Part shown: in pieces, positions 43,381-64,000 of the stretch | Position numbering within the stretch: position 1 is the stretch's first letter | Layout: every line of letters begins with the position of its first letter | Assembly (NCBI GenBank): GCA_015179025.1 | Contig: WHUX01000127.1 | Location: 93,284-157,283 of the forward strand | Direction: 5' to 3' | Source: Terfezia claveryi | Lineage: Eukaryota; Ascomycota; Pezizomycetes; Pezizales; Pezizaceae | DNA: 64,000 nt | Made by a program: the position numbers and the translations under genes | The notes under the pieces: generated by a model | What the model was told of the DNA's origin: nothing | Seen by the model: the letters and a program-made list of their open reading frames with translations, nothing else | Databases searched by the model: none

Positions 43381-45491
43381 TTACAGACACTAGCAAGGGA
43401 CCTATCCTGGGTCATTTGTCTTTGTCGTCTTTCTCTGTTCCTGCATCTATGTCTGTTGACGTATCTCGCTTGTTTGGCGAGCATTTTGTAGTACCAATAA
43501 CTGTTAAATTCAATGGTAAAACAGTGGTAACATCAGCTCTCATAGATTGTGGTGCTTCAGGAATAGCCTTCATTGATCAGACCTTTGTCAGTAAAAATTC
43601 GATACCAACAGCCAAGCTAAAGACCCCCCGCCTTCTTGATGTCATTGATGGCCGACCTATCTTTTCCGGGGCTATTACCGACCTCGCATGCCTACTTAGT
43701 GCCATTGGAGACCATTCTGAAAGCCTCCCTATGTTTGTAACCAAGCTCAAATACCCCATTGTCCTGGGGATCCCCTGGCTCCGAATACATGATGTCTCCG
43801 TTAACTTTGGCTCTTACACCTTGAACTTTAACAGCGGGTATTGCGAGAAGCACTGCGGTGCCCCACAGACTGCCGTTAAAGGATTATTTGCCCTACCACC
43901 CCCGATAGAGGATCCTAGCCAGGTGATGGCAGAAACCCCCCCACTAAAACCCCTCGATATCAACTTCATTGGAGCAGGGGCCTTTGCTTACCTTACCAGA
44001 AGGCACAAGCTGAAAGCCCATACTCTATCAATCTGCGAAGTTAACCTGGAAATCAATAAGCTGCAGTCCAAGGAAGAATGGAAGTCCATGGTGCCGGGTG
44101 AATACCACGAATTTATTGACTTGTTCTCTGAGAAAGCCATGGAGAAGCTGGCACCACATCAACCTTATGATCATACAATCCCCCTGGTGGAAGGAAAGAC
44201 GCCCCCATGTGGCCCGCTCTATGAAATGTCTCGGCTGCAACTGGAGGCTCTGAAGAAGTACTTGGAGGAGAATCTCAATAAGAGCTTCATTCGGCACAGC
44301 TCTTCCCCGGCAGGTGCCCCTGTGCTGTTCATCAAGAAATCGGATGGCTCCCTCCGGTTATGTGTTGATTATCGTGGCCTGAACGAGATAACAGTCAAGA
44401 ACAGGTATCCCTTGCCTCTAATTCAGGAGACATTAGCCAGGCTTTCCAAGGCGAAATGGTTCACCAAATTGGATCTCAGAGAGGCATACAACCTGGTACG
44501 GATTGCTGAGGGGGAGGAGTGGAAAACCGCCTTCCGGACACGATATGGCCATTTCGAGTACAATGTCATGCCCTTCGGCTTAACCAACGCCCCTGCCTCT
44601 TTCCAACACTTCATTAATGACACCCTGCGAGACTTCTTGGATGTGTTCTGCACAGCTTACTTCGACGATATCTTGATTTATTCGGATACCCTAGCAGAAC
44701 ACAAGATTCATGTCCGGCAGGTATTGGAAAAACTGGAGCAAGCCGGATTGTACCTCAAGCCCGAGAAATGCGAGTTTCATGTGCAGGAGGTCAAGTATCT
44801 GGGACTGATCATCACCACGGAGGGCCTCAGAATGGACCCTGCTAAGGTTACCGCTGTCCAGGAATAGCAAATCCCAGCAAATCTCAAGGATGTCTAAGCC
44901 TTTCTGGGATTCGCTAACTTCTACCGATGGTTCATTCTAGGGTATTCGAAGATCGTAGCCCCCCTCACCGCCCTGACCAAAAAAGACCGGCGCTTCAACT
45001 GGAATCCAGAAGCCCAATCCGACTTCCAGAACCTCAAGGAAGGCTTCTGCTCAGCACCGATCCTGGCACATTTCGACCCTGACCAGGAATGTGTCGTTGA
45101 AACCGATGCCTCCGACTATGTCTCCGCTGGAATCCTGTCCCAGTATATCGATGGAGTCCTCCACCCAGTGGCCTATTTCTCCAAAAAGCACTCCCCGGCG
45201 GAGTGTAATTACGAAATCTATGATAAAGAGTTAATGGCCATTGTGCGAGTATTCGAGGAATGGAGACCACACCTGGAATCGGCAAAGGGGGTTATCGAGG
45301 TCCTCTCTGACCATAAGAACCCAGAGTACTTCACAACCACCAAATTGCTAAATCGCCGACAGGCTAAGTGGTCGGAATTCCTCTCTCGGTTTAACTTCAA
45401 GATAAGGTATCGGCCGGGAAAGGCTGGGGGTAAGCCGGATACACTAACCAGGAGATCAGGAGATCTCCCTAAAGGGGGGATGAAAGGCTGA
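43254..45491 (+). pseudogene. Gypsy-A protease, reverse transcriptase and RNase H
   Basis: One frame runs from 43254 to 45491 with two stops. The protease shows ALIDCGASGIAFID; RT shows SPAGAPVLFIKKSDGSLRLC, FTKLDLREAYNLVRIAEGEE and the catalytic YFDDILIYSD; RNase H shows [27 protein letters not shown] and [10 protein letters not shown]. The stops at 44865 and 44895 fall in the RT-RNase H connection, at positions where the family has Trp and Gln (TGG to TAG, CAA to TAA), and FYRRFI has become FYRWFI by one C-to-T. Otherwise the catalytic residues are intact. The frame breaks at a G run (45473-45478), where one extra G would restore reading into integrase. Confidence 0.9.
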
Positions 45492-45505
45492 AGTACCAGA
45501 ATCAG

Positions 45506-46912
45506 GTGGTACTGAAACCTGAAAATCTTGACCTGGCGGCCAATACCCTTGCGGAAGCTGAGGCTGAGGCTGATACGGAAGCTGAAGCTGAGGCTGAGGC
45601 TGATGCAGAAGCTGAGGCTGACCTCCGACAACTAGTGAGACAGGCATATGAGGATGACCCCCTGACTAAGGAAATTATCACCACAGTGGATTCTGGCCAG
45701 CGCCGCCACCACAAGATCTCCCTAGCCGAGTGTACCGTCCAGGAAGGCCTCCTCTACCACCTCGAACGGCTGTATATGCCAGAGGGAGAGCTGCGCCTTC
45801 GATTGATCAAGGAACACCATGACAGCCTGGTAGCAGGTCACCCTGGAGTGGCCAAAACGTTAGAGCTTCTGGCCAGGGAATACACATGGATTGATCAGTG
45901 GAAGGAAGTGGAGTGGTACATACGGAACTGCCATGTTTGCAAGTGTGCTAAGCCTGTCCGCCACGCCCCATATGGCACTCTGAAGCCCCTGGATATCCCA
46001 GATCGGCCGTGGCTGCATCTGCCCATGGATTTCGTGACAGGATTGCCAGAAGACTCGGGATTCAACGCTATCTTGATGGTGGTAGATCGGTTGACAAAAA
46101 TGAGGCACGTTATACCTTGCCGGGATACCTGCTCTGCCCTAGAGTTAGCCAATCTCTACCTTAATAATGTATTCCGATACCATGGCCTCCCTGAATCGAT
46201 CATATCCGACCGTGGCCCCCAGTTTACCTCCGAATTCTGGCAAGCCTTCTGCGAACTTCTGGAGATTAAAGTGCGGCTGTCAACGGCATATCACCCCCAG
46301 ACGGACAGCCAATCAGAGAGGATGAACGCCATTATGGAGCAATATCTGCGGGCCTTTGTCAACTATCAGCAGGATAACTGGGTTTCGCTGCTGGCCACCT
46401 GCGAATTCACCGCGAACAACCAGTTCTCGGAATCCTCCAAAACCTCCCCTTTCCTAGCTAATTACGGCTGGCACCCCCGGTTCGTGGATGCCCTGGCGCC
46501 TCTGCAAAAAGCCTACCCCCCAGCTAAGGAGTTCGCGGTTGGAATCGCTGAACTCCACCGTACCCTGAAAGCCGAGCTGGGATATGCACAAGCCCGGCAA
46601 GCTGAGTATGCCAATGGATCACGGTTGCCAGCCCCCAGATATCAGCCAGGAGACAAGGTGTGGCTCTCCAGCAGGCACTTCCGAACGGAACGGCCATCTC
46701 GCAAGCTGGATCACAAGTTCCTAGGCCCCTATGAGGTGTTAGCAGCTGTGGGCACTCATGCTTATCGGCTGAGGTTTCCCAAGGATATCAAGCGCCATCC
46801 GGTCATTCATGTCTCGGAAATCGAGCCAGCCGCCGACGATCCCCTTCCCGGGCTAAAAGCACCCCCCACCTCCTCCAGTGGTGATCGCAGGCGAAGAGGA
46901 GTGGGAGGTTGA
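45506..46912 (+). pseudogene. Gypsy-A integrase
   Basis: An open frame of 468 codons contiguous with pol after the G-run shift. After a short leader there is an expanded Glu/Ala/Asp repeat (residues about 14-41), then the HHCC zinc module (HHDSLVAGHPGVAKTLELLA, NCHVCKCAK) and the core PMDFVTGLPEDSGFNAILMV, ESIISDRGPQFTSEFWQAFC and YHPQTDSQSERMNAIMEQYL, giving the D, D, E triad. The GPY-like C-terminal region HKFLGPYEVLAAVG follows. It ends in a shifted Arg-rich tail; the chromodomain lies in the next frame. Confidence 0.9.
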
Positions 46913-47892: not shown

Positions 47893-48190
47893 TAAGCATC
47901 AGCAAAAAAAATATTCGTGTCATGTGTCTTCCTGTACGTCCGACGCATAGGACACATGGGACAGAACCTTACAATCAGGACGCCAACCGTTTGGTGGGCT
48001 AGTGTCGGGATGCATTCGGATGGTGGTCCCACGCCTGGGACGCTGGACTTACTCTTGGCAGGCACGCCTGCGCCCTGGATGCAAGGCTTATCTTTGGCTG
48101 GTGCCCCTTGTGTCTCGGACGTAAGGCTAATGCAACGTTCCTCCCGACGCATTTGGTCTGTGGACTCACGTCCTTGAAGTATTTGTCGAT
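47893..48190 (+). repeat. Dispersed repeat family, copy 3 (partial)
   Basis: It begins GCATCAGCAAAAAAA, followed by TTCCTGTACGTCCGACGCA and AATCAGGACGCC, as in copies at 18553 and 25535, then a different GC-rich core (CGGGATGCATTCGGATGGTG, CACGCCTGGGACGCTGGAC). The conserved far end seen in the other two copies is not found, so it is truncated or replaced. It abuts the broken Gypsy-C. Confidence 0.6.
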
Positions 48191-48700
48191 TGTACGTGCA
48201 TCACCGACAGCTTTCTGAATTGGAGCAGCGTCTATGATGCTGTCGCACTCACTACTTTCATCCCCAACGAAGTAAGTTTATTGACTACTCTTCCTCAACA
48301 TTTACGCAAATGAGTGCTCTTCCTCAACTCTGGCCTGCTCCGATCTGACGTCTACAACGCGGGCTTCCCAACATTGTACGTCGGCAATGCAAGCGGGTGA
48401 ACCTTGGATCTATTTTACTTGAAATTGGAATTATTTCATATTTGAATTCTAGCTTGCTAATCCATGCCTAAAAAAAATCGTATTTATCGAAAAAAAAAAT
48501 TCACCAAATAAAAAAATATAGCAAAAAAAAAATAGCAAAAGACATAATAAGCCCTAGTACTGCTACCTCATAACTTCCATCATATTCTTCCACTTATCTG
48601 TCAAGGTTATTTATCTTCATCGTCGGTCTCGTAATCATCGTCGCATTCTTGATCTACCCCATCCAAGATAGTTAGCCTTGTCTGAATGGTTATAAGCGTA
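48191..48700. other. No gene recognised
   Basis: Duplicated words (GAGTGCTCTTCCTCAAC, ACTACTCTTCCTCAAC) around 48285-48330 and A-rich tracts at 48470-48535; no coding region until the end of the minus-strand gene near 48.7 kb. Confidence 0.5.
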
Positions 48701-48714
48701 GAAAGACGTAAAAC

Positions 48715-50189
48715 TTACCAACGGAGGTAGTTTCATCTTCAACCGCATTATTCTTGTGCTGAAGTACGTCGAGAATCCATTGTCGGCTGAGGTGTTTTGA
48801 TTTTGCAAGCTCGGCAAGTTCTTGAACAAGCTCAGCTTCAAAGACCGAGGTATTGCTGATTCGCAGGGGTTGGTCTGATTCCAGTAAACCGTTTTGCTAT
48901 ATGGCGGCCAAACGTGCGCCTACATCTGCCTTGATTGCAGCCAAGAGGAGCACACATACTTTCCGGGGGTGGGTATTCCAGGTAGCTATGAACCATTTGT
49001 AGGTTGCTATACACGTCAGAAAGTATGCTCCCTTTGTCGGGTGAGAAATACTTACTGACGGTGGTATCGTATCTAAAATTCCCTGTACTTGGGGGTTCAA
49101 CATACACCCTGGTTGTCCATGCCTTCAGGCAATGACGCATGGCAGAGGTGACTAGGCAGATGAACACTTCATTGATCGAATCAAAGAAGGTATCATCCGA
49201 TTTCCCACGCATTTTCATATTTGAGAAATATTTACAGAAGATGATCTCCGTGATTTCGTTAGCACGGAAATACCTCTGGTGGGCCTGTATAAGTGTTAGT
49301 CATGTCAGACCTCTGACACCAGAAGGAAGGCTTACCTCCCGGCCATCTTCTCTGCAAATGAACCGATCCTGAAATAACAGGTACTTCACCCGCTCAGCTA
49401 TCTCGTATTGAGGTAGGTGGTTCAAGGCGAAAAGCTCGACAATACTATGTTTACATTCGTAAACAAGGTGTGCTCGAGTTCGCAAATGTATACTATGCAG
49501 CTGTGATAGTTTAGAATAGCATCCGACGTCGCAGACAGGGAAGAGTACATACATAGGCATTTGCCGTTTTCATGCGTTTCAGTTTTTCTCTAGTTTCTTC
49601 TTGAGCTTTGAGCCAGGCTACTGATAACAATTGTTGGATTTCCTCCGCATTTAGCATTGGATTTCCGAATAAAGTATAAAAGCGCACATGCTCGGCCGCT
49701 CGCGAGGTGAGTTCCTTGTACTCGTCTGGGATAGCAAAAAACGACCTGGATCGCGGCCCGACGTGAGAGGGCTTGTTGACCGTCAGGTCGATCTGTTGTT
49801 CCTGGGGTGTCTCGAAGTCAAAGTTAAACCTATCACTGGGCAGATTACTCACACTGGACTCAGTGTGAGTATGAAGCCGCCTTCTGCTAGCAGGGGGTGC
49901 CAGTGGGGAGGACTATGTACATTGGAGTTAGCTGGACTCATGGATCTAGATGTGAGGTGGTACTTACTTGCAGCCTGGAACTCGAAGTCTGTGAAGAAGC
50001 GTATTGGATACACAGTTTCCTCGCAGGGCGTGTCCCATCCGACGCCGTACGTCGTTTTGAGGATAGTGCTATATGAGGAGGCTGAAGAACAGTCTCCTCA
50101 TCTTCGTCCTCTTCGTCCTCCGCATCATATGAAGGAATTGTTTGCTGTCGTGTAACACCCTGTGAACTTTCGCCCGGGCATTGTGACAT
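48715..50189 (-). CDS. DUF6532-like multi-exon gene
   Basis: A minus-strand gene starts with ATG at 50189. Exon 1 (50189-49968) is acidic and disordered (AEDEEDEDEETV). Exon 2 runs from about 49860 to 49553, exon 3 49500-49336, exon 4 from 49284. Introns 49552-49501 and 49335-49285 have GTATGT / GTAAGC donors, CTAAAC / ACTAAC branch words and CACAG / TACAG acceptors, and keep phase 0. The protein shows HVRFYTLFGNPMLNAEEIQQ, YLLFQDRFICREDGRE, HQRYFRANEITEIIFCKYFS, DSINEVFICLVTSAMRHCLK. This order and pattern recall DUF6532, a fungal domain of unknown function; this is from memory, not a search. Further introns are needed near 49045 and 48955. The 3' end (KSKHLSRQWILDVLQ) is approximate. Confidence 0.55.
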
Positions 50190-50715
50190 TATGGAAAGTT
50201 GATGTGAATAGGGATGGGGTTGTGCAGAGTGAACAGAAATGTGCAGAGGGAAGGGAATGTGCAGAGGGATGGGAATGTGCAGAGGGATGGGTTGATGACA
50301 AGTGGGGGGATATTGAGGGTGAGGAGAAGACGTGAGGAGTCGGAAATTTGGGCTACAGGGGACAATGAAAGCGGATCCAAATGGTACTTATTAACTTCCG
50401 AGTCTGCTTTGCTATCTTGAAAACAGTTCCATCTATCTAGAAAAACTCCCGACTCTACCAGAATAAAACCCGACTAACCCCAAAAGAGCCCGACTACCTA
50501 TAAAAATCCCGAGTAACTCTAGAAATCCCGAAAATGCTAGAAAATCTATGCCAACTAGACTAGAAAACCCCAACTAACACCCAACTAAACAGAATGATAC
50601 CGACGTCCCCAAACTGTCTACCTACATCCAAAGTCATGTAAAAAGATCTTCTTAGGCATTTATCGTCTCCCAATAGTATTGGGCTGCGTTCAACCCGTGA
50701 ACTTTGCTCACCACC
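50190..50715. other. Intergenic; two short repeats
   Basis: Upstream of the DUF6532-like gene there is a GTGCAGAGGGATGGGAAT repeat (50235-50295) and an array of CCCGACTAACCC/CCCGACTACC words (50445-50580). No other gene is evident. Confidence 0.5.
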
Positions 50716-51835
50716 CGTCGAACGCACAAGAGTCGGTTCAATCAAGTAGCCTGACGCCCTACGGCTACCACCTGACGTGCCTTAACAAGTTGCGGACCAG
50801 AGTTAATTTTTGGCCGTTTGAGGTATCGAATGTAGCAGTAATCCTCATCATCGGAATCGATGATGCCTGCATTGGGGAAGAGGCACTTGTGCTCCTTCTT
50901 GATATTGCTCAGGGTTTCCTGCTAGTGGTCCACTCTTCCACGGAGTTCATACTTGCGTTGTTCGAAAGTATGGTCTCTTGTAGGCATCCGATGCCGACGG
51001 ACCCCAGCGACATTGCATACGTTCGCATCAGAATCCTCGGCAAAATCTTCATATTCGTTCCGGGGGATAAACTTCTCAAGTTCGAAGTAAGGATGGGCTC
51101 GGGGGGAGTATTGGCTCTTGGGGGTACAGAATGGAGTAACACCATTAGGCGTACTGGGTCACTTTTAGACATTCGGAAAAATGCCTTCACCACCGTGTCA
51201 GAATGGAAACCAGTATAGTTGGCAGGAAAGCTGAGGTTAGGAGGGTTCGGGTCCTTGAATGCGCCCAAAATTTCTCGAACCTTTCTATCGGCAGGAACAT
51301 GAGCTTTGACCATGTCCCAAATCCCGTCTAGAGTCTTTATCTGAATAACCACTAAATTCCTTCTATCCAGTTCATCCCAGATCCACCCGTTGATATCCCT
51401 ATGCTCTCCTATCTCAGGATCATATACCCTGAATGCCACCGCGGTCCCTACAGCTTTACCGGCGTCGGAGATGTCTTCTTCTTCGTCGGAGTTCTCGTGA
51501 GCATGTGCCCTCTTTCGAGCACGTTTGATAGCCAGGTTTTTTGATGTCTCAGAACGTTTCTTTAGGCAATCTTGTAGCAGTGCCTCCAGTGCCTTTTGGT
51601 GGGACTCGTACCCACCGGCCAGTCAATTCCTCATAGAAGTCCTAAATCCAGTTAGGCTGCGAGCAGTAATGATAAGAGCATCTTTCTTATTTTGGCTTGC
51701 TGAGGCCCAACTTCGGATTGAATGTTGGGCACAATAGTCCTTGACAGCATTGCGCCATGATGTGTAGTCGGCATCTCGTGTGTCCCACCCCAAGTCGGTC
51801 TTCGAGTTCTGAATTAGGTTCTTAGGAGTAACCAT
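50716..51835 (-). pseudogene. Uncharacterised gene, about 370 codons, with stops
   Basis: It starts with ATG at 51835 (MVTPKNLIQNSKTDLGWDTR) and stays in one frame to about 51160 apart from a TGA near 51618, giving KALEALLQDCLKKRSETSKN, a basic RARKRAHAHENSDEEED patch, and ELDRRNLVVIQIKTLDGIWD. Around 51150 the coherent reading moves to another frame (HPYFELEKFIPRNEYEDFAE, HTFEQRKYELRGRVDH, ETLSNIKKEHKCLFPNAGII, DSDDEDYCYIRYLKRPK) with one TAG at about 50930, where CAG to TAG is a CpA-to-TpA change. It could be a gene with unrecognised introns or a RIP-damaged one. No domain recognised. It may be functionally linked to the following DUF6532-like gene on the same strand, but only position suggests that. 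Confidence 0.45.
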
Positions 51836-52430
51836 TTTGGTGTTGAATGTGGGTCGTGTTAGTCTAGTCTAGGTTAGTCGGGTTGTCTTCCTTATGCGTC
51901 GGGTGTGAGTTTGGGTAAATAGAGGATCACCTTATAGGGAAATGTACCTAAATAAGTTGAATATCTTGGTGTTTGCGGTCAACGCAAAGGTCATTATAGT
52001 CTAGTTAGGTAGCTGAGTTTCTGTAGATACTGTACGTAGGAATGATGGAACTACAATACAGGCTATGTCGGGTCTTTTTATACTACATCAGCGATGGCCT
52101 TCGTTTGAAATTGACGGTTAGTGGTCAAACTTCAAAACGTAGACAAAGTAATGTAAGTACCAGGTCATGTCCAAACTCAACGGCACTAGACCAACCCAGG
52201 ATTAGTGTGCGCCCCGAGGCGAGTCGAGGCGAGTTTTACAACTATTTTTCCGACTCGGTACCGACTCGCACTGGCCACATTTCTAGCGAAGCCACCTCGC
52301 ACCGACTCGCTGAGTACTCGGTGATTAACCGAGTCCTCGCCAAGAATTACTGACCGATATTTCACTGTGTACTTCGTTTCTGACGTCACTAAATTATTCT
52401 CTTGGCAGAGAAATTTGCCCGAGTTAGCTT
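51836..52430. other. Intergenic; CGAGTCG-rich possible transposon terminus
   Basis: At 52198-52330 there is a cluster of GGCGAGTCGAGGCGAG, CCGACTCGGTACCGACTCG and CACCGACTCGCTGAGTACTC words. CGAGTCG-rich termini with a TAGTGTGCGCC start are reminiscent of some hAT elements, and this lies 0.9 kb beyond the end of the hAT transposase. I found no matching inverted copy, so it remains a suggestion. Confidence 0.3.
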
Positions 52431-52434
52431 TAAA

Positions 52435-52705
52435 CAATTCTGTGACAAGTTGAATTCCATGACAACTTGAGAGAATTCCGTGACAAGGAGCAATCCGTGA
52501 CACCTAAGGAATCCGTGACAACTTGAGTTGATTCCGTAACAACTTGAGTTGATTCTGTGACAACTTTAGACAATTCCGTGACAACTACGGGACCGTGAGA
52601 AATGGCGACAATTCCATGACAGTGCAAGCAATCCATAACAGTAGAGGCAATCCGTGACGTGCAAGAAATCCGTGACGTGCAAGAAATCCGTGACAGTGAC
52701 GGTGT
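52435..52705 (+). repeat. Cluster of TCCGTGACA motifs, left of hAT gene
   Basis: About a dozen copies of TCCGTGACA or one-mismatch variants (TCCATGACA, TCCGTAACA), all on the plus strand, spaced 12-30 bp, often as ATTCCGTGACAACTTGA. The same motif recurs inside hAT introns and at 57.7, 59.6-59.8 and 61.6 kb. Confidence 0.8.
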
Positions 52706-53160
52706 GCTAAGTTAAATTTGACCCGAATTATATACAGTATGTATAAGAACTCGTCCGCCGGCAGCATATAGCCGAGTTGGAGCATTGTAAAATAACCCCG
52801 CAAAAATTCGATCCTGATATATTCCACATAAAACAAAGCAAACCTAACTCAAAAGACAATCCCAAGACACAAAAGAAACATTTTTTATCATAGCAAAATA
52901 TGCCTGAATGCTAATTCGCTAACAAAACACCAAATCAAACCTAACACCACCTAAAAAAAAAAACCCTAAATCCAAAAATATTCCCATCACACAAGAGAAA
53001 CATTCCCTATCAAACACCAATACTTAAACTGCAACATCCCTAGACACTCCTGATTACTGAGCCGGCAGTAATAATTACCATCCCGCATGCCCTACATATC
53101 ATCAAACCCCACATAACATACACTACTTACTCAGACTTTGTAGTTCCTACGCTGAGCAGG
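52706..53160. other. 3' flank of hAT transposase, no gene
   Basis: A-rich sequence with CACAAAAGAAACATT words repeated near 52867 and 52990; no coding region. Confidence 0.5.
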
Positions 53161-56099
53161 TCATAGTTTCTTCTGAAACCTGGTTGCCATTGATGGCGTC
53201 AGGCTCACGGATGGTGATGCGCGGCGCTTCACGCTCCGACGTGGAGTTGAGGGGGATGGTGTTGCTTCTTGCTCGCAAAATACAGTTCGACGGAATGAGT
53301 TCAACAAGCCTGGCGTAGAATGTTCCGTCAGACTATGCGATAGGCTTGTATTATCCAATGCTGAGTCTGCCAGGTCATTTTCCAGGTAATCCTCCATTAG
53401 ACCGCTCGCACCTGCATCCATATCACAATCCGTATCTGAATCCAAGTCCGTCATTCCCTCTGCGGGATCTAGGGATTGTGGTACCATGCGGCGGAGGAAG
53501 TCTGCGTCATAACTGAGAGCCTCGTTCTCCAGTATTACCTCACCTTCATCCAGATCGGCTATCCCTTCTTCCACATGTGCTGGTGTAATTTGTCCCTCTG
53601 GGGCTCCGTATTTCGCGTGTACGGTTGCCCACGATTTGGTTAGCATCAGCGCAGTTATCATCTTGTGACCCATTCTGTTCCGTCTGTAAGGCAAAATATC
53701 TCTAGCACTACTGAATATTCGCTCCACTGGCACAGATGTCAGTGGAATACTCAATATGTCCCTTGCCATTCGTGCCAGCACCGGAAATTCACTAGCATAG
53801 ACTTTCCACCAGGAGAGGGGGCATTTCCCATTCAGTGTTGTTACCGGAATCGAAAGGTATCTTTTGATCTCGGGTACATCCTCCGATTGCACTGTTGTAC
53901 GCTCTTGCAGTCGATGCATGATATAGGATTGTTCTCCATCATCGACTTGTGTGTTATGAACCGGAGGTTCTGGTGCGTACTTGGCATAATTATGATCAAA
54001 ATAATCTTCGAACTGAACTCTGAGCACGGAATTTTGTAAGAATTGTCTTTCTGTATGTCACGGAGGGTCTCATGTTACAGAAAATCTCGTGTCACAGAAA
54101 ATCTCATGTCACGGAAAATCTGGTGTCACGGAAAACACATTGGGCAACATAGGGAGGGGCGGAGTGAATTCAAACGTACTTGTAATACTCCGCGTATACA
54201 ATAGAGTCACTGTTCTCCTGCGTCCCACTTGGATTTTGGACGGTGAGATTTCCCCAGTCCATGTACAAGGATAATTTCTTGGATGGATCAAGGATGGTGG
54301 CAAGGTTGTAGATGAGAGATTGTTTTTCAGTCCTAGAATAATACTTCTGAAACATCTGCTGACACGCTTTTGTCACGGAGAGAAACCCTGAAGCCCAGGT
54401 AGGATTACCGGGAAGTTTGCGTATACGTTTCCGCTGTTTTTCTATGTGGTCGAAGATGTCATTGTAGATGAAGAACGCATTGTGTATGGTCGCATGCTGT
54501 CCTGTGGAGATAGCGTGAGTGTAATCCGACAAAGGTTTGAGGAAAATAGTAGCCTCCTGAACTTGGGTCCACTCCTCCTGACTCAACCACAACTCGGAGT
54601 ACTTGTTCTCTGTCGTAGCTAGAGCAATCCATTGCTCAATGTAGCACTGGAGCCTCAATGCTCGTGTAAGCATTTCAAACGTTGAGTTCCAGCGCGTTTT
54701 GACGTCCTGGATGAGGCCCATGGGTGCTCGGGTGTCAGTTTGGAGTTCCTTGAATTGTGCCAGGCATTGTGGGCTGGCAACTATAGCCTTACAGAGCTCT
54801 CGAACCTGCATAAATTTTAGCAATAGGTTCCGTGACTCGTATTGGCCTTCCGTGACATGTCTGCCATTCTGTGACATGTTTGCCTTTTATGATCCACCTT
54901 TGTTTATTGAGCAGCATGGAAAATGACTTACTTTGCAAACAAATCGCGCGAAAGTACCTACCGCATAGTTCTGCAGCGCTCTTATTGACGACTCGATTGG
55001 AGGTGTGGACCAGCTAGGATCTTCATTATCTGGGTTGGACTTGAGTGCTTTCATAAACTCGTTGCTGACCAAAGCAATCACATGTGCTTGGCAGGGAAGT
55101 CGGTATTGCAGTGGGTCCCATTTAGCACTGAAAACATTGGCTTGTAAATGCTTAGCCAACGCCGTGTTAACACTTGCGTTATCTGAAACAACAGCCAAAA
55201 CTCGGTTCGTGATGCCATATTCCCGTATTAATTTACTTAGATTGTTACCCAAGTGAATAGCGCTATGAGCTTCCCCACCTAGGTACTGGAATCCGATTGT
55301 ATATTGGCGCAGCTGCCAGTCCTGGTCAATATAATGAATTGTTGTCCCCATGAATGCTAACTTATTTGGAGAAGTCCAACAGTCTGTAGCCAGGTGTAGG
55401 AATGTATCTCTCGGGAGACTTTTTTCAACTTTCACTTGAACTTCAGCTGCATAATTATGTACACCCCTGCGAAGTGTAGTGGGAGAGGGGATATCAATTC
55501 CAGATCTAAGCAATTTCAGGAGATTCTGGAACTGCGGATGTTGGATAGTTCGGAAAGATAAGTTGGCGGCTATTACAGTTTTCATGAGTTCATGTTTGAA
55601 GGCATCATTACTAAATTGCACTTGCGGGGATTGTGCGGCGGGAGGTGTTGCCTAGATGTAACGTAAGCTTGTCTCCTCAATTATTGCAGGGTAGGTATGG
55701 ATTATATAATTACCTTCCCAAACAGGGTTGAAATGTCTTGATCCTTTCGCCCACTAGCTGACCGACATCTCCCTGAGGTGAGGTGACCTCTCATGTGTGT
55801 GGTGCCCACATTGAACGCACTAGGGTGTTGCAAGGTACCCTTGCAAGATAAACAAAATATGAAAGGCTCCCCGCTCTGGATCTTTGCGCCTTGTCCAAAA
55901 TGGGCCCAGTGTGCGCCGTTCGAAGTTTAGAATCCCATCGGGGTGGATTCATATTGTTACTTCGCATCTCTTTGGCCAGATTTTCATGGAGCTTGCCTGC
56001 CCAGTCGGTAGTTTCCCACCATTCATCAAAAGGCGCAGATTGCTCTGCTTCCCACTGGAAAGCAGTTCCGCCTAATATTCTGGTGAGAGTGGAAACCAT
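53161..56099 (-). CDS. hAT-family transposase with BED zinc finger, multi-exon
   Basis: On the minus strand: a BED-like finger (AHWAHFGQGAKIQSG, CLSCKGTLQHP, THMRGHL) near 55.9-55.8 kb; then the RNase-H-like core with LATDCWTSPNKLAFMG (first Asp) and VVSDNASVNTALAKHL (second Asp), RLPCQAHVIALV, and the hAT C-terminal dimerisation domain (WWKVYASEFPVLARMARDIL, SVPVERIFSSARDILPYRRN). Introns with exact phase are 55714-55652, 54931-54806 and 54179-54020, each with GTAATT/GTAAGT/GTACGT donors and AG acceptors. The three exons downstream of the finger are free of stops. The 5' end is unclear: ATG at 56099 opens a frame that does not join the finger without a shift near 55910. It is probably a nearly intact cut-and-paste transposase. 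Flanking inverted ends were not found. Confidence 0.85.
54020..54179 (-). other. hAT intron 3 carrying five TCCGTGACA-type motifs
   Basis: Donor GTACGT at 54179 and acceptor CTCAG at 54020; splicing joins codons in phase (YYK then VQFEDYF). Within it the motif appears five times (54057-54132) as TTTTCCGTGACA or TTTTCTGTGACA on the minus strand. Confidence 0.75.
54806..54931 (-). other. hAT intron 2 carrying three motif copies
   Basis: Donor GTAAGT at 54931, acceptor ATGCAG at 54806, phase 0 (FVCK then VRELCK). It holds TCCGTGACT, TCCGTGACATG and TCTGTGACATG on the plus strand (54830-54880). Confidence 0.75.
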
Positions 56100-56370
56100 T
56101 GAGCTAGAATGAGGTACCTATGTGTACACTTGTAGATCGAGATACGTTCGAGTATGGGGCAAGATCGTCTGGCTATTGTATTCCTGGAAGTTGGCAATAG
56201 GTTGGGAAAGGCATTAGGGAAGAGATGATTATTTATTCACATTCTGCGACCAGTTGGCACATGTACGGATAACGCGTGCTTGTCACGGATTCTGTGGAAG
56301 ACATTCCATTGGTACCTGAGATGCGTTCCATAATAACGCAAATTTATATACTTCAATAAACACGGTCAAT
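56100..56370. other. Intergenic, upstream of hAT transposase
   Basis: This short stretch upstream of the transposase start shows no coding signal. Confidence 0.5.
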
Positions 56371-56374
56371 CATG

Positions 56375-57020
56375 CTGTAGCGCATCTACAGCGCGCCAAA
56401 CCCAATCCCAATCCAACCGCGCGACCGTCCAATCATTCCAAAAAGGGTCCCCGATGTCTTCGTGGTCATCATGTGAGTCGTCATCATTGTCATCACCTGA
56501 ATCCTCTGAGCTGTGGGATGACCCAAGAGCTCAGTTGTACAGTCAGAGCTTTCGCTGCAGGAAGACGATGAATCGCTATAACCAGAATCGCAGTCGACAT
56601 TGTCCTCCATCATGTCGTCTTCAGAGTCATTCCCGATTTCGGACTCAGTCGGGCTAGCGTTATCAATTGGTCCGGGGCTGTCGTCGACATCACTTTCTGG
56701 TAGCTCTGATATATCATCGGGGATATTGGTCAAATCCAGTTGGAGTATGCTGCATCTCAATGGCCAATCGGACTGGCTGTAAGTTCCATAATCTCTCGAG
56801 GTCTAGACATAGTTAGCCCGACGCTCTGTCTAACCAGACTACGCTCTGTCTATGTGCAAGGATTAGAAATACACCTTCTTGAAGGCCGAAGCCAGAACTC
56901 TTGCCCACAACATAATACTGTTATTCTAGGTGGGGGATGCCATTGCGGCGATATATACACTGGACGCCGAATGATTGCCCCATCAGGATCCGGTGGGTCT
57001 GGGAGAGTATCTAGCATGTA
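56375..57020 (-). CDS. Exons of an uncharacterised acidic protein
   Basis: The minus strand from 57018 reads MLDTLPDPPDPDGAIIRRPV, YISPQWHPPPRITVLCCGQE, FWLRPSRR; after a break near 56830 it continues YGTYSQSDWPLRCSILQLDL, DDISELPESDVDDSPGPIDN, an Asp/Ser/Glu-rich tract and finally DPFWNDWTVARLDWDWVWRA. The pieces lie in different frames and need one intron near 56800-56850 and a frame change near 56530. The composition is clearly protein-like, but I recognise no family. It ends about 270 bp upstream of the hAT transposase start, on the same strand. Confidence 0.35.
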
Positions 57021-57700
57021 GTGAGTCGAGACCTCAATGTTTTAGCGCAGAGTTAACTTACCGATGGGAATCGACAATCTTGGCATAAACCCCATGATTG
57101 TTGGCTGCCACTCAGGTAATGGTGGAAAAGGGTAACCCATAACAAATCATAGAGAGTATAGTCATCCAGGTAAAAGATTTGTGCACTACTATGCAAGCTC
57201 ATGGGAATACTAGATCACACCCATCAAACCAAATCCTCTCTAGAAGCTCCATGGCTACCGCTCGGGAGGTAATCCTGTTGGGGTCAATCAGTCCATAACC
57301 AACTGGGTGGACTGGGACGTTACCAATTCCGTAACCTGTAGACTAAGGATGCGTTGTAGTCCTGCGGTATCTCTCCATGGCTGCCGGAACTCTTCGAAAG
57401 CGAATTCATCTTTGGATTGTAGTATTCGGGCATATTGTGAGGTAGGGTTCTTGGCATAATGCTCGTTGTAATATGGTCAGTGAGAATTACAGCCCTGACG
57501 AACTATATATAAGCAAAACTCCAGTTGACAGTTCTAGAAAGAATCCCTAAATGGTAATGTCCTCTTTTGGTAGATTGTCTACCTCTAATTCTGACGTAGA
57601 ATGGGAGGACAAAAGTAGACTAGTCTGCAGCTAATAATAATTGTATCCAAAGGACCTGGCTAGCATTAGTCGTGGGAAAGACCTGCATGGCCCATCTGGG
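57021..57700. other. No gene recognised
   Basis: This spacer contains only short frames. Part may be introns of a longer minus-strand gene that includes the exons at 56.4-57.0 and 58.0-58.6 kb. Confidence 0.4.
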
Positions 57701-57711
57701 ACAAGGCATAA

Positions 57712-57845
57712 GATCCGTGACAACACATCCGTGACAAGACATCCGTGACAAGACATCCGTGACAAGACATCCGTGACAAGACATCCGTGACAAAATAACC
57801 CGTCCGTGACAAAGAAAATATCCGTAACAAGAAAAAATATCTATG
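57712..57845 (+). repeat. TCCGTGACAAGACA tandem array
   Basis: The motif is here a direct 14-bp tandem (CATCCGTGACAAGA) with five to six tight units followed by looser ones (CCCGTCCGTGACAAAG, TATCCGTAACAAG). Confidence 0.85.
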
Positions 57846-57989
57846 ACCACATAAGTAAAGCACAAGATACCACCAAATGGAAGTACCATCCTGATCCACT
57901 CCAACCTGGTGTAGAACTGCCATAATGGTTCACAATAGTACCTCATCTACGAAAGTGATGAGTCGATGGCGATGAGTCGATTGCATAAT

Positions 57990-58650
57990 CTATACCATAA
58001 GAGTTGGTTTAGCCGGTGGGAGGTAGGCTGGCAGGTGAAGCGTTCTCTGTCTCATGTGGTAATGGTCAATGCATCTTCTGAATAGCACGGTTAATCCTGA
58101 TATAGCTAGTTGTTCACAACGCATCGACCGATCAATTGCTGTACAGGCAATAATGTCATTCATCACTTGCCGAGGTATAGTTCCAGGCAACGCAGGCAAG
58201 TTATTGTGCCAGTTCCGAAACAGGTAGTACATGCCTAGGTCTGAAGGAAATGACCAGAGACATTGCTTGGGCCAGCGTCTGCTGGTGCCAGATAAATTCG
58301 TCGTGTCCCCACTCTACCACTCTATTCACTTCCTGTCCTCCATTATCTGCATCTCCCTACCCTTTTGTCATTCCGCACCAAGCCACCTCCGATCCATTAT
58401 TACTTCACCACAACAAAATATGTCGTCAAGGTATGACTTCCATACTTTTTTGCTTGCCCCATATGAGGTTGCGTACATATCCCGTGTTATTTGAGTAAGT
58501 GCGATAGTCATGTGGGCTTGTCCCATTTTGCGCGGTTCCACTGAACAGATGACGATGATCGTATTTTCCTGTTACCTTGAGCGGGTCATGTTTGAAGCGC
58601 CTGGCAACCACACGTACTGCAAGGTCGAGTGGTTTGTGGTGCTGGAAACT
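57990..58650 (-). CDS. Exons of an uncharacterised gene
   Basis: Two coding-like blocks lie on the minus strand. One (58640-58430) reads HHKPLDLAVRVVARRFKHDP, LKVTGKYDHRHLFSGTAQNG, TSPHDYRTYS. The other (58232-57990), which starts with ATG, reads MYYLFRNWHNNLPALPGTIP, RQVMNDIIACTAIDRSMRCE and ends near a possible GTATAG donor. A further piece at about 58790-58740 reads DFAHGIGFDNHWKFGVK. These probably belong to one intron-containing gene. No domain is recognised. Confidence 0.35.
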
Positions 58651-58785
58651 GATCTGCGGTGAGGAACAGGAAAATGGCGTATAGCGGTATTGTGTGGTAA
58701 CTCACTTGATTTGACACAACCTTATTTTCGGCTTGCAGCTAATCTTTAACCCCAAACTTCCAGTGATTATCAAACCCAATACCGT

Positions 58786-59318
58786 GTGCGAAATCAATCA
58801 CGATGTCCAATACTAGAAGTACCTGCCATACCTAGCAAAGCCGACACTGACAGTGATCATGTCAGAGATGGTAGAAGGGTTTTGCAGGAAATAGAGGTGG
58901 AGATGCAGGAGGGCAATCCTGGGGTTGATAAAGAGAATGAGGAGCCACTCGACGAAACTTCAAGGCAACCCCCATACACCCAATATGAACATTCCCAACC
59001 TGTACAACTTTCCCCGTCATTTGCCACCCCCCCATTATTGATGTCTCACGTGCTCCTCGTCAGCAGCAGAATTCCATAAATCAGCCCCTAAATCTTTCTT
59101 TGCCTGCAGTTGGGACTATTAACCCAAGAAGGACAAGGTGGTCCAAAGACCGGTCAACCCGGCGACGCCAGGTTCGCAAACAAAAGCGATGGCAAAGGCA
59201 GCAGGAAGCACAAGTCATCGAGGAGGCCGCTGTGGGGGGAAGTCTTAGTATTGAGATTGGGCCGGGCTCTTCTGATTTTCATTTTGGCCCAATATCCTTC
59301 TATGTCAACCAAAATTAA
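58786..59318 (+). CDS. Uncharacterised basic/acidic protein, frame broken at a C run
   Basis: The plus strand reads SKADTDSDHVRDGRRVLQEI, EVEMQEGNPGVDKENEEPLD and QYEHSQPVQLSPSFATPP; one base at the C run 59027-59033 separates this from the continuing frame IIDVSRAPRQQQNSINQPLN, RRTRWSKDRSTRRRQVRKQK and DFHFGPISFYVNQN, ending at 59318. The Arg/Lys-rich centre looks like a nuclear localisation or nucleic-acid-binding patch. No ATG in frame is visible at the start, so an upstream exon is likely. Unknown family. Its start overlaps a possible exon on the minus strand near 58.75-58.79 kb. Confidence 0.4.
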
Positions 59319-59856
59319 ACATGGACCCATTTATTCATATGTAGACTTGAGTGCAGGTGAAATTCATAATGTAAGCACTTATGTGCACGCCTCGTGGTGA
59401 CGCTAGTCGCGTGGCCGTGTTCGGTTAATGGCATCCAGGTTTGCTTGTAAACAAAGAATTCATTTATTTGCACGAAAAAAGGGTTTTGGTGGTTATCTTC
59501 CATTTATCTACCAGGTCCAAGGAATCGTCAGCACTTGTACGGTGATTTGCATCTATATAATCTGCTGTGAAGATAACGAAGGGGTATGTGCAAAGCCATG
59601 TCATGGATGCTGTCACGGAGGATGTCACAGAGGCTGTGACGGAGGTCGTGTCAGGAAATCTGAAGTTAGCTTATTCACTAACTATCAGTTATCTCAATCA
59701 CAGATATTCTCGTCTGAATAACTAGCAGCTGTGAAGATAACGAAGGGGTATGTATTGCAAAGTCATGTCACGGAGGCTGTCACGGAGGTCGTGTGAAGTG
59801 GAATGACGTTGAGTCCAAAGTGGAAAGACTGACGAAGTTTGTGTTTAAGATCCACA
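59319..59856. repeat. Spacer with TGTCACGGA motifs (59605-59790)
   Basis: Contains two similar sub-blocks (GTGAAGATAACGAAGGGGTA at 59567 and 59730), each followed by copies of the motif in both orientations, such as GTCACGGAGGATGTCACAGA and GTCACGGAGGCTGTCACGGA. No gene is supported between the flanking plus-strand frames. Confidence 0.65.
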
Positions 59857-61533
59857 ATGCCAGACCGTCCTCAGAAGAAAAGTAAGACAACTGGTAAAGC
59901 GCCAGCCAGCCCGGCACCAGAGTCTGCCATGCAGAAAAAAAAGTCAACTCGAGAAGGACCAGCTAGCTCGGCGGGGAAGAGGCCGGAGCTTATTCAGAAA
60001 GAAGGCATGACAACTCGCAAAGCGCCGGCAGCACAGACAACAGAGCATGTTCCGAAAAAAAGGAAGACAAGAGCAGAATTATCACCCTCAATTGAGGATG
60101 TTACAAGAAGAAGGAGGACAAGAGCCGAACTAGCCCTAGTCCCCCCCCAGTTGAAGATGTTCCAACAAGAAGAAGGACAAGAGCTGAACTAGCCTTCTAC
60201 CCACCCCCAATTGCGGATGTTCCAAGAACAAGGACAGCCGAACTAACTGAGGATGTTCCTAAAAAAAGAAACACAAGTGCGGGATTAGCCATCCCATCCC
60301 CAAGGAATCTTTACGCCAAATATGCCAACTTCCCATGGGGCTCGCGGGAGTTCAATCCAGATACCGAATTTAGCGGGGGGAGGAATGCATGGAGCACTTC
60401 CACAAATCCCCACACGAAAAAAATTCGAGAGACCCACAAGAAACTGCTTGGCCCCCCTTTGTCGTGGGAGCATGCCAAGGACTGGAAAAGACAAAAAGTC
60501 AACAGGGTACTCAAAGCAGGGATTAAGGAGGCGGAACACGCTACGATAACTGGAAGGGCAATCGGCACTCGGAGAAACCAGTTAAACGATATTGAACTAG
60601 GAAACTTCGAAAGAGTTGTCCAAAGGACGTGGGACCTGATGTTCATCCGCAAAAGGGCATATATTCTCTACCAGTGGTATCAACTCTCGGATGACCAGAA
60701 GAGATTATACTTGGAATTGGAGGAGTAACAAGAGCTCCCCGATTTCCAAATTCCAAATGGGGAATTGGAAGCAATAGGGGTCAAGCCAGTACAGCAGTTC
60801 GCAGTCGTCATTAACGTTGTGCCGATAAACCGCTGAGCCTATGCCCGATTCCAAGAGCCAACTCCACTAGTCTCGACACCCGACCCTGGAGCTACACGTG
60901 ACACAGGTGCCAACATAACTAGTGACACAGGTGCCAACAAAACTAGTGACAAAGGCCCTAACGTACCCGAGGGTCGGATGCTGACCATTCAAGAGGAATT
61001 AGCCGAGGGGGGTGCCGACGATTGCTTAAGTGATGAGGACATTGGGACGGATATTGAAGAGGTAGGTGCATCCTCACGCTTGATCCATCTCGTGCTTGAT
61101 GTAAAGAACTTTACTCACCAGTGGATAGGATTACGATGACAAACCCAACAAGCAAGATGATGACGAAGATACAGGACTATGGGGCAGATGGGAAGCTTCG
61201 GAGGGTTCTACCGAAGAAGAAGAAGCTCAACTAACTGAATCTGACTCCAGCAAATGGGGAAAGGGGTTGTTGGTACCTGGCGGAGATAGGCCCACCAAAT
61301 TTCTTCCAAGCGGCATGGAAGATGAGGATTATAGTGACTCCACCGAGGAGGACGATACCGAGGTCAATAAACGAGTATATCGGCGGATTTTGCATCGAGG
61401 TACTACAATGACAACCACCGACAACAATCAAGAGGACAAAGGCGAGAAGCAAGTCGCAGGCGATAATGGGGGGAAAGATGAGCGAGAAGATGCAGATGAG
61501 GAAGAGGGTGAGGATGAGGACAAAGCTGACTAG
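59857..61533 (+). pseudogene. Uncharacterised nuclear-type protein gene, damaged
   Basis: ATG at 59857 opens a Lys/Arg/Ala/Pro-rich frame with repeats of the form KKRKTRAELSPSIEDV and TRRRRTRAELA. At a C8 run (60141-60148) the coherent reading shifts by one base and continues to 60728 with AIPSPRNLYAKYANFPWGSR, SWEHAKDWKRQKVNRVLKAG and RKRAYILYQWYQLSDDQKRL. TAA at 60726 and TGA near 60836 then interrupt a reading that goes on as ELPDFQIPNGELEAIG and GRMLTIQEELAEGGADD. A 67-bp intron (61062-61128, GTAGGT...GATAG) in phase 0 leads to an acidic last exon (YDDKPNKQDDDEDTG ... EEEGEDEDKAD). The first stop fits CAA to TAA. Without the lesions it would encode about 540 residues. No known domain; the centre vaguely resembles an HMG-type helix end. 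Confidence 0.45.
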
Positions 61534-61574
61534 GGAGCAAGGAGCAAAATGGGAAATATTTTGGATTTGTTTTT

Positions 61575-61630
61575 ACTGTCACGGATGAAGGACTTGTCAC
61601 GGATGGCAAACTTGTCACGGATGCCGTGAA
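61575..61630 (-). repeat. TCCGTGACA cluster in inverted orientation
   Basis: Three spaced copies of GTCACGGAT (61577, 61594, 61614), opposite in orientation to the clusters at 52.4 and 57.7 kb. Confidence 0.75.
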
Positions 61631-62170
61631 TAGTCATTATCAACTTTCTGAGGTGTAATTGTACTACTATTTTTGTGTCTTTGATTGTATATTTTATTGT
61701 GTCTTTTGTTGTTTATGTGTTGGATGTCTACGGGCTGATGCAAGTTTTTTTTTTGGGTGTTTACGGGGTGGGGTGATGCAATAGTTTTTATCTTTGTATA
61801 TTTTTTTGATGTCTACTCCGGACTGATGGTATTTTCTTGGTATGTTTTTTTGATGTCTACAGGCTTTGTTTTGGGCTCATGCTAGAGGTATTTTGTTTCT
61901 GTTTTTGTTTTGTCCAATGCTAGTGTTTGTTCTGTCTGAAACATTAGAAGGTACGTTTTTTTATTCCTCCCTTTGTTACTAGTGAGCTAACTGATGACGG
62001 CCAACACAAATTAGTGAGGATAGAGAGAAACAATGAATTATATTTTGTTCTAGAGCTCATTGGTCTATTTGTGGTCCACTGCGTACCCTTGGAACATACA
62101 TATACAAGCAAACTTACTATCCCAAATCTCAGATTCTTCGAACCTCCGACTTCTGCAACCTTAGGTTTGG
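61631..62170. other. Intergenic T-rich sequence
   Basis: Contains three related units (TGATGTCTACGGGCTGATG at about 61727, GATGTCTACTCCGGACTGATG at 61809, TGATGTCTACAGGC at 61850). No gene is supported. It is the upstream region of the H3-like gene; a plus-strand ATG frame from 62014 has no motif. Confidence 0.5.
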
Positions 62171-62172
62171 AA

Positions 62173-62240
62173 ATAACACTTACCCCAGATACAGATAACA
62201 CTTACCCCCAGATACAGATAACACTTACCCCCAGATACAG
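62173..62240 (+). repeat. Three 23-bp units directly upstream of the H3 ATG
   Basis: ATAACACTTACCCCCAGATA plus CAG occurs three times head to tail (first copy 22 bp), ending five bases before the ATG at 62246. The array forms the presumptive 5' leader or promoter-proximal region of the H3-like gene. Confidence 0.8.
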
Positions 62241-62245
62241 ATATA

Positions 62246-63207
62246 ATGGCGCGAACAAAACAGAAACCCAGAAATATCAAGACCGTAGTGCCCCCAGCGA
62301 CGGTCCCACCCCCCCAGGTGCCCCCGCCCCAAGTGGCCGCACCCTAAGTGGCCGCACCCGAAGTGGCCCCGGCGATAGTCCCCCCTCCCCAAGTGGCCCC
62401 TGCCATAGGCTCACAGGCTAGAGCAGTTCCCAGAAGAAGAAGGGTCAATCGAGGACGTAAGAACTCCTAAGCTCAATGCCAGTTCAATTTGACCTTGGAA
62501 TGCTAAGTGTGCTGTTAGTGGCCATTGTCAGACAGATACGGAGACAACAGGGCAGCGCAAAGCTGATAATACCGAAGACTGCGTTCCGACGGTTGTGCAG
62601 AGAAATTGTACAAGACGTGAACAATGAATACAACGCTATGCCGAGGATTCTCGGGGGACGGACCGATGTTGAAAGAATTGTAATTCTCGCGACAAATGCT
62701 CTCCAAGAGTCTACGGAGGCATATATGCATGAATTTTTTACAGGTAATAAGGTATAGATGGTGAGTAGAAAATTGTCAGAATAATACTAACATGGCTGAT
62801 GCAATAGCGATCAACCTTTTGGCAACCCAGAGTGGGGAGCGAAACCCACCACGCCAAACAATTCTTCGCAGGGATGTGAGGTTGTGGCGTCAAGTGGAAG
62901 AGAATCGGCTATCCGGAGATAATGTGACCCACATACACGCACCGTTTTTCCACCCACTACCAGCAACACCAGAACCAGCAGACGCACAAGAACAAGCACC
63001 AGCACCAGCACCAGAACCAGCACCGGCACTAGCACAAGCACAAGCACCAGAACCAGCACCAGAACCAGCACCAGAACCAGCACCAGCACTAGCACAAGCA
63101 CAGCACCAGCACCAGAACACAGCAGAGCACAAGAACAAGCACCAGCACCAGCACCAGAACCAGCACCAGAACCAGCACCAGCACCAGAACCAGCACCAGC
63201 ACCAGCA

Positions 63208-63239
<32 letters not shown>

Positions 63240-63337
63240 CTGCACAAGCACGAGCACGAGCCTCGAGCACCAGCGCCAGCACCAGAACCAGGACCAGCAG
63301 CTCCTATTGGGGCGGATACTTCTTTGTCATCGTCTAG
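62246..63337 (+). CDS. Divergent histone H3 variant (CenH3-like candidate)
   Basis: ATG at 62246 gives MARTKQKPRNIKT, matching the H3 tail through Gln5. Exon 1 continues to ARAVPRRRRVNRG at 62456. Intron 62457-62518 (GTAAGA, GCTAAG, TTAG) joins in phase to exon 2 (62519-62743): LAIVRQIRRQQGSAKLIIPK, TAFRRLCREIVQDV, then ALQESTEAYMHEFFT. Intron 62744-62807 (GTAATA, TACTAAC, ATAG) joins in phase to INLLATQSGERNPP, RQTILRRDVRLWRQV. These align with the H3 alphaN, alpha1, alpha2 and alpha3 segments in order. Loop 1 is about 14 residues and loop 2 about 5 residues longer than in H3. A long extension rich in PEPAPA follows. A TAA at about 62342 lies in a Pro-rich tract that a third intron (62285-62416, 132 bp) would remove. 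With that removed the exons sum to 278 codons including the stop. Confidence 0.75.
62985..63290. repeat. Hexanucleotide-type array CCAGCA/CCAGAA in the H3 C-terminal extension
   Basis: Dozens of CCAGCACCAGAACCAGCA-type repeats change frame by indels along the array, giving Pro/Ala/Glu repeats at first, then His/Gln/Asn, then Arg/Ala. A different frame downstream reads SSSRRSIRTRTLSSSSSSSS and DKEGEQWRNGDDKEKNNR to about 63441, so the true C-terminus is uncertain. Minus-strand Leu/Val or Cys/Ala frames are by-products. Confidence 0.8.
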
Positions 63338-63441
63338 AAGAAGTATTAGAACAAGAACCTTGTCATCGTCTTCTTCCTCATCTTCTGACAAGGAAGGAGA
63401 ACAATGGAGGAACGGGGACGACAAGGAGAAGAACAACAGGT

Positions 63442-64000
63442 AATTGAAGGATCACCTCGAACACAAGATTCCATATTACAGCCCCAGGAAGATCATCGAA
63501 GATGTTTTATTAATTGAGCTTTGCTGTTTTTTGTGCCCCGGGTTGATTGGGGGTAATGAATGATCTGTTAAGGGTAGGAACAAGGTTACAGAAACTAATT
63601 CGTTTGTATGTAGGCTTGAGAATAGCTCATGTTATTTGGATCGATATGGGACTGAACATGCAGACACGCAAGGAAGAGGAAGGAGGTAGAAAGGGAAGAG
63701 TGAAAAGGGTAGAGTTATCGGTGGTATTATGTTTTGGCTTGTATTATATTTTAGGGAAAAGAGTGTAGGCTTGTTGGTAGCGTTTTTTTTTTAGTTGTGT
63801 TTTCTGTTATTTTTTAATTGTGTTATCAATTGGGGAAGAAGGAAGTTGGAATGAAGGAAGTTGGAATAGGATTCATTTGTATTTTTAATGTAGTTGTTTT
63901 ATGAGTTGTAATTGGGTCATAGGATTTTCAGAAGCAAAGGGAGTTCGTGAATGAGGTTATGATTAGGAATGGCTGATGGCATGAAGAACTATTACAATTT
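63442..64000. other. No gene recognised
   Basis: Right end of the window. A 73-codon frame at 63547 has no motif. There is a duplicated GGAAGTTGGAATGAAGGAAG word near 63840. A gene could extend in from outside, but I see no sign. Confidence 0.5.

Follow-up and report, generated by a model that had tools for sequence, protein, structure and literature searches.

An H3-like gene inside a hAT element

The DNA analysed here, called the window, is a 64,000-nucleotide stretch of the Terfezia claveryi genome (contig C32, positions 93284-157283), and near its right end lies a histone H3-like gene, designated H3L, which is carried by a hAT transposon. The element (52203..64000) also holds transposase pieces on the minus strand and a further gene on the plus strand, the central gene. 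Its left end is present and its right end was lost at the contig end, with C32 stopping at 157283 (window position 64000); judged from the copy in C45, the window copy is ~550 bases short on the right. The genome searched comprised 72.6 Mb on 794 contigs, and the copies found were sorted into subfamilies A (including the window copy), B, C and D, a deep subfamily E (C27, C245 and others) and F (C143).

H3L lies on the plus strand. Exon 1 (62246..62456) encodes the N-terminal tail and opens at an ATG at 62246 with MARTKQKPRNIKT; exon 2 (62519..62743) covers alpha N, alpha 1, a long loop 1 and alpha 2, according to Pfam and PDB matches; and the conserved part of exon 3 (62808..62923; INLLATQ...TILRRDVRLW...), placed by alignment to H3, covers the end of alpha 2, loop 2 and alpha 3. 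Predicted intron 1 (62457..62518, GTAAGA...TTAG) is in phase 1 and joins in frame, and the codon phase changes between the two sides of predicted intron 2 (62744..62807, GTAATA...ATAG). The latter was supported independently by comparing A with B, as the third-position excess follows one codon phase in 62600-62799 and another in 62800-62999; using the predicted exon borders, A-B third positions lead in both exon 2 (0.42 per site) and exon 3 (0.31 per site). Exons 2 and 3 align with H3 in order, and loops 1 and 2 are long throughout A-D. When joined, these exons matched the Pfam Histone profile PF00125 at 32.6 bits (cut-off 26.4) and PDB H3 chains at 33.9 bits (E 2e-7), and the best 60 of the 171 PDB matches were H3 or histone-domain chains. 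A model of exon 2 from a B copy placed helices at residues 2-16, 22-42 and 52-76, with a low mean pLDDT (predicted local distance difference test) of 66. In H3 residue numbering (used below for R63, R69, R72, R83 and H113), residues matching R69 and R72 are kept in representatives of A-E, and R83 in A, B, D and E.

A sequence-only reading of this locus, made before the present analysis, had described a MARTKQ start, H3 motifs in the right order with expanded loops, and two introns joined in exact phase; all of these were borne out, the predicted introns being of GT-AG type, as was the profile match that it expected of the spliced exons. The H3-like exons are real, but the reading overlooked that codon 34 of the tail exon (62345-62347) is an in-frame TAA, and the window copy is thus broken. 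The proposed C-terminal tail of more than 120 residues did not hold up: it is an unconserved 12-bp minisatellite (62953..63311, plus strand) whose reading frame differs between sister copies (L013 versus L014 in B; L055 versus L057 in C), and the H3L frame of two D copies, L028 and L073, ends shortly after alpha 3.

The terminal inverted repeats of hAT elements are short and begin TAGNG. The left terminal inverted repeat of the window copy (52203..52223, plus strand, TAGTG...) is 21 bp long with a 95% inverted match to the C45 right end, and the left edge is sharp, since the DNA matches of other element copies begin at 52203. In inverted orientation the left end, TAGTGTGCGCC, matches the right end of C45, and C23, C226 and C131 have comparable ends; the match of the left repeat to the C23 right end spans 12 bp only. 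Besides the window, TAGTGTG... was found at the left end of the 7 copies read, and ...ACTA at all 4 right ends located (C45, C23, C226 and C131, among 8 copies looked at), while no right end was seen in the sequence examined for C350, C390, C66 and C219. Among the four copies read at both ends, an 8-bp target duplication was seen in C131 (8/8 bases), C226 (7/8) and C45 (7/8). End to end, the element measures 12.2 kb in C23, 12.5 kb in C226 and 12.8 kb in C131, and H3L is placed between the hAT ends in all four copies. Several copies, e.g. C45, C23, C226, C350 and C131, contain repeats of both window segments 52203-57000 and 57000-61000.

The transposase (53161..55651, minus strand) was recognised by Pfam in pieces at 53161-54057, 54170-54886 and 54887-55651, which may not span the full gene. 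The dimerisation domain Dimer_Tnp_hAT (PF05699) scored 74.5 bits (cut-off 21.4), and matches to hAT-like_RNase-H and DUF659 were under the Pfam cut-off. With 8-bp duplications, TAGNG-type ends and the transposase dimerisation domain all present, H3L is almost certainly transposon-borne.

The right flanks of C45 and C23 (L039 and L040) are 99% identical over 5.9 kb across and past the right end of the element, and the two differ on the left side, where C23 lacks the target duplication; this reflects either recombination between copies or an assembly artefact. Many TCCGTGACA-like repeats lie near the left end (52430-52690) and inside the element (57699-57830), and they are possible transposase-binding sites.

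The central gene (59857..61533, plus strand, from open reading frames) begins with a basic stretch containing KKRKT-like repeats, continues into a conserved helical domain at about 60300-60725 and finishes with an acidic end. In the window it shifts frame before 60200 and stops at 60726; its open frames are longer in the C45 and C355 copies. A genome search with it gave 118 matches, whereas Pfam yielded nothing over cut-off, the PDB no sequence match and a fold search no match at E <= 0.001.

Copies and subfamilies of the element

The exon 2 search gave at least 113 six-frame matches, and after merging of pieces and removal of two host genes at least about 101 H3L loci remained. The gene is therefore not unique to the window but belongs to a transposon family. 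Neighbours were counted over 92 of the 118 central-gene matches and 103 of the 150 transposase matches. The central gene lies up to 4 kb upstream on the same strand at 59 or more of the 101 H3L loci; among the matches listed, it was on the opposite strand at one locus and downstream at none. A transposase lies 3-25 kb upstream on the opposite strand at 44 or more of the 101. A transposase, or a central gene no more than 12 kb away, accompanies at least 71 loci, and 30 have neither among the matches listed.

Even at C27, where identity falls to 33-38% (transposase 38%), the order transposase, central gene, H3L is preserved. A-type copies have flanks 87-97% alike. H3L identity to A is 84% in B, 76% in D, 61% in C and 30% in E. 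The corresponding values are 85%, 66%, 69% and 34% for the central gene, and 77% (C280, counted as B-like by similarity), 81%, 60-69% and 38% for the transposase. The three genes thus diverge roughly in parallel, with E farthest in each and the order of C and D varying by gene. In subfamily C, the copies L054/L099/L101 and L057/L094 are near-identical and have an open H3L exon 2 and central domain and, in some, open transposase pieces, which suggests recent movement.

Host histone genes

Two histone genes separate from H3L were found, answering the search for other H3 genes and for a distinct centromeric H3 (CenH3) that had been proposed with the sequence-only reading. The canonical H3 gene (C153, L002) starts MARTKQTAR and scores 137 bits to PF00125. 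The other (C773, L001) scores 130 bits and has a longer loop 1 with LRWQS; the label CenH3-like is inferred. H3L does not fit the part of the single essential centromere H3 of this genome, given the number of loci together with the gene on C773. The proposal of a specialised H3 survives in that H3L is diverged with an expanded loop 1; its identification as the host CenH3 or a new host paralogue is not supported, given about 100 repeats, hAT ends and the separate H3 and CenH3-like genes.

Another possibility is that H3L is a host family of CenH3 or H3 variants that spread as ordinary duplicates beside transposons. The word TGRKTIVG is shared exactly by the E tail (L091/L086) and the tail of the host CenH3-like gene, and a word that long arose in 0 of 2000 shuffles; fold scores to the host CenH3-like gene and H3 are also close (A 119/120, B 101/113, C 132/112, D 109/103, E 118/113). 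The full E tail, however, scores 49 against each of the CenH3-like and H3 tails, the host has its own H3 and CenH3-like genes, and H3L is flanked by hAT ends, three copies also having target duplications, while its spacing and orientation relative to the other two element genes are kept. An origin as host duplicates is therefore very improbable. The word shared with subfamily E may reflect an origin of H3L from, or exchange with, a CenH3 gene.

Host matches also included one Pre-SET, a chromoshadow domain and cytosine-methylase on three contigs, which makes a silencing pathway to be evaded plausible.

Codon-level divergence of H3L and the central gene

Between subfamilies, H3L changes favour third codon positions. 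Changes in exon 2 between A and B fell at codon positions 1, 2 and 3 in a ratio of about 10:7:30, and over all tested pairs the third-position share was 0.54 for A-B and A-D and 0.46 for A-C and B-C. Within subfamilies the share was 0.32 in A, 0.35 in B, 0.26 in D and 0.42 in C, the one with near-identical copies; within A and B, the decay is spread evenly across codon positions. Damage in A copies is mostly C-to-T, at 0.265 for CpG, 0.151 for CpA, 0.054 for CpC and 0.027 for CpT. This pattern and the H3 sequence are in keeping with a filamentous ascomycete. In a scan of 58400-62930 between A and B, clear three-base periodicity was confined to the central gene and the H3L exons.

The ratio of nonsynonymous to synonymous divergence (dN/dS) in exon 2 was estimated between subfamilies from ten chosen copies by the NG86 and YN00 methods. 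A-B pairs gave 0.08-0.10 (NG86) and 0.12-0.21 (YN00), A-D pairs 0.085-0.093 and 0.06-0.11, and A-C pairs 0.13-0.18 by NG86 where defined. The transposase gave 0.18-0.29 between groups by NG86, so by this measure H3L appears at least as constrained as the transposase. For the central domain, NG86 values were 0.115 (A-B) and 0.17-0.18 (A-D and B-D). The test of selection suggested in the sequence-only reading thus returned ratios of about 0.1-0.2 between subfamilies, not near 1, and these apply to the lineage: the apparent constraint is on the transposon lineage and not on the broken window copy. The codon bias stands, and the absolute dN/dS values are not to be leaned on. Synonymous divergence (dS) of the transposase is lower than that of H3L. 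When 60300-60725 and 62533-62915 were compared with B, third positions changed two to three times faster than the non-coding DNA of the element.

These patterns bear on whether H3L could be a passenger, acquired in a single capture of an H3 gene by a hAT element (transduplication), in which case the constraint would be a trace of the gene's past in the host. Two published accounts point this way, one reading its cases so (PMC6710886) and the other suggesting drift (PMC3538342). Many H3L copies have in-frame stops, changes within A and B ignore codon position, and the constraint looks mild when set against non-coding DNA. Against this, A-D share derived features (long loops, R63P and no A-R-K-S) that neither the host H3 nor the CenH3-like gene has, which implies that A-D diverged after capture, and the third-position bias persists on that post-capture divergence. 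The central gene has the same codon pattern, and the three-gene order is kept as far as C27, at 33-38% identity. On this evidence a passenger origin of the pattern seems unlikely.

N-terminal tails

The first 48 tail bases were aligned per group, with no conditions placed on residues, and 47 of 50 tails were readable (A 10/10, B 17/19, C 17/18, D 3/3). The canonical H3 tail, ARTKQTARKSTGG, is not reproduced by H3L. K4 was kept in all 47 readable A-D tails, and the context of K9 is replaced in A-D. Position 9 is N in 30/30 tails of A, B and D, mostly within T-K-Q/T-x-x-R-N-I/V-K, the K9 context in A, B and most of D being R-N-I/V-K. In C the tails read K-K-N (16/17) or K-N-N (1/17). A-D have thus lost the A-R-K-S setting of K9, and E has not.

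H3L might instead serve transposition directly, by packing or bending the element ends or by binding the transposase, with histone marks unchanged. Its DNA-contact arginines are kept and its tails are basic, and the marks may be secondary, as the K9 context is kept in E and changed in A-D. The retention of K4 in every readable A-D tail nevertheless suggests that tail readers or writers matter, and a direct role of this kind is judged improbable.

Proposed role of H3L

The explanation that we favour, with a probability of roughly 0.55, is that this is a three-gene hAT family in which H3L is maintained as an element gene and would supply a variant H3 that weakens silencing of the element's own chromatin. 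H3L would be expressed while the element is active, pair with host H4 and enter nucleosomes on or near the element, perhaps with the acidic central protein helping as its chaperone. Since the tail keeps K4 and replaces the K9 context in A-D, nucleosomes of this kind would serve poorly for H3K9 methylation and HP1, and the element would stay open for transcription and transposition.

The components of this proposal differ in strength. It is probable that H3L has been maintained for the benefit of the element. The odds are about even that H3L is a nucleosomal or tail-mimic chromatin protein, and it is doubtful that it acts specifically by escaping H3K9 methylation. The most elaborate version, in which the element would carry a dedicated chromatin kit of a K9-methylation-resistant H3 variant and a matching acidic chaperone, forming self-nucleosomes that resist silencing, is rather unlikely.

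Several observations weigh against a maintained, silencing-resistant histone of this kind. A-B third positions differ at 0.42 per site in H3L and 0.32 in the central gene versus 0.12-0.16 in the non-coding DNA of the element, and exon 2 positions 1 and 2 (0.114 and 0.086) look only mildly constrained relative to that DNA. H3L intron 2 shows an A-B divergence of 0.26, below the third positions of both genes. Because third positions outpace non-coding DNA, H3L and the central gene may be older than the DNA around them, the gene cassettes possibly having been exchanged between subfamilies, or the synonymous divergence may have another cause. Values of dS were often undefined through saturation, e.g. 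in 212 of 288 B-C pairs. Loss of K9 is not general, as subfamily E retains a K9-like context (K-Q-T-G-R-K-T-I-V-G in 5/6 loci); there is a lysine at position 9 in 16/17 C tails, and in A and B a lysine two residues after position 9, which may be a displaced counterpart of K9. H3L has Pro at R63 and Gln or Tyr at H113, so DNA and H3-H3 contacts may be altered. No chaperone fold was detected in the acidic central protein by the Pfam, PDB and fold searches described above. Finally, C23, although read at both ends, is without a target duplication (2/8 bases match).

Relation to known elements

The sequence-only reading knew of no H3 described with such a layout; H3-like genes in hAT elements have in fact been published, in Pyrenophora (PMC3538342) and in Pseudocercospora, Cercospora and Sphaerulina (PMC6710886), and an H3-carrying hAT is therefore a known kind of element. 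The hAT of Pyrenophora tritici-repentis is 5.6 kb long, with 26 nearly identical, recent copies and expressed sequence tags, and it likewise joins a transposase, a central open reading frame and an H3-like gene, the last reported to be neither H3 nor CenH3 (Manning et al. 2013, PMC3538342). Unlike it, the present element is 12.2-12.8 kb long and has at least about 101 diverged loci, at least five subfamilies and two predicted introns, and constraint at the codon level was measured for it here.

H3-bearing hAT elements were described in the genomes of six Mycosphaerellaceae, with a length of about 9.5 kb for P. fijiensis; all extra H3 copies there are dead and were read as a captured intronless housekeeping transcript (Dhillon et al. 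2019, PMC6710886). Those of Pseudocercospora, Cercospora and Sphaerulina resemble the present family in being hAT elements with 8-bp duplications and with C-to-T damage to their H3-like copies, which number in the hundreds there, and in their two-H3 elements one copy has a 16-residue insertion (PMC6710886). The present family differs in having introns and a central gene, and in that some of its copies retain open frames.

Other chromatin genes encoded by transposons, as outlined in PMC12730594, include TET/JBP in fungal DNA transposons, VANDAL proteins and SET in Harbinger/MuDR. As in those cases, a DNA transposon here carries a chromatin-related gene besides its transposase; unlike those enzymes or sequence-specific regulators, the cargo is a histone. 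With bracovirus H4, whose tail is reported to alter host chromatin (PMC5423620, PMC9145170), H3L shares the supply of a histone by a mobile or parasitic genome. The differences are that the viral H4 acts on another host, whereas H3L is an H3 in a resident transposon, known here from sequence.

What appears new in T. claveryi is a diversified lineage in which H3L and its central partner are seemingly kept as element genes and four subfamilies have an altered K9 context. The 2013 report asked whether captured genes are under selective pressure, and for what reason (PMC3538342). In the present genome, diverged subfamilies are numerous enough to approach the question of whether a captured H3 is under selection, and the constraint on H3L seems about equal to that on the transposase. 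If H3L works in chromatin, transposons would have evolved their own histone variant to manage host silencing, and nucleosome studies would gain natural H3 variants in which loop 1 is long and the K9 region altered.

Neighbouring repeats in the window

Another dispersed repeat, several copies of which are 94-96% alike, occupies 48000-52209, and its matches reach beyond the left end of the hAT element by 6-7 bases. An open reading frame within it (50912-51622, minus strand) had no Pfam match. Farther to the left, polyprotein pieces with reverse transcriptase, RNase H and integrase lie at 43233-46909, and we label these Ty3/Gypsy-type.
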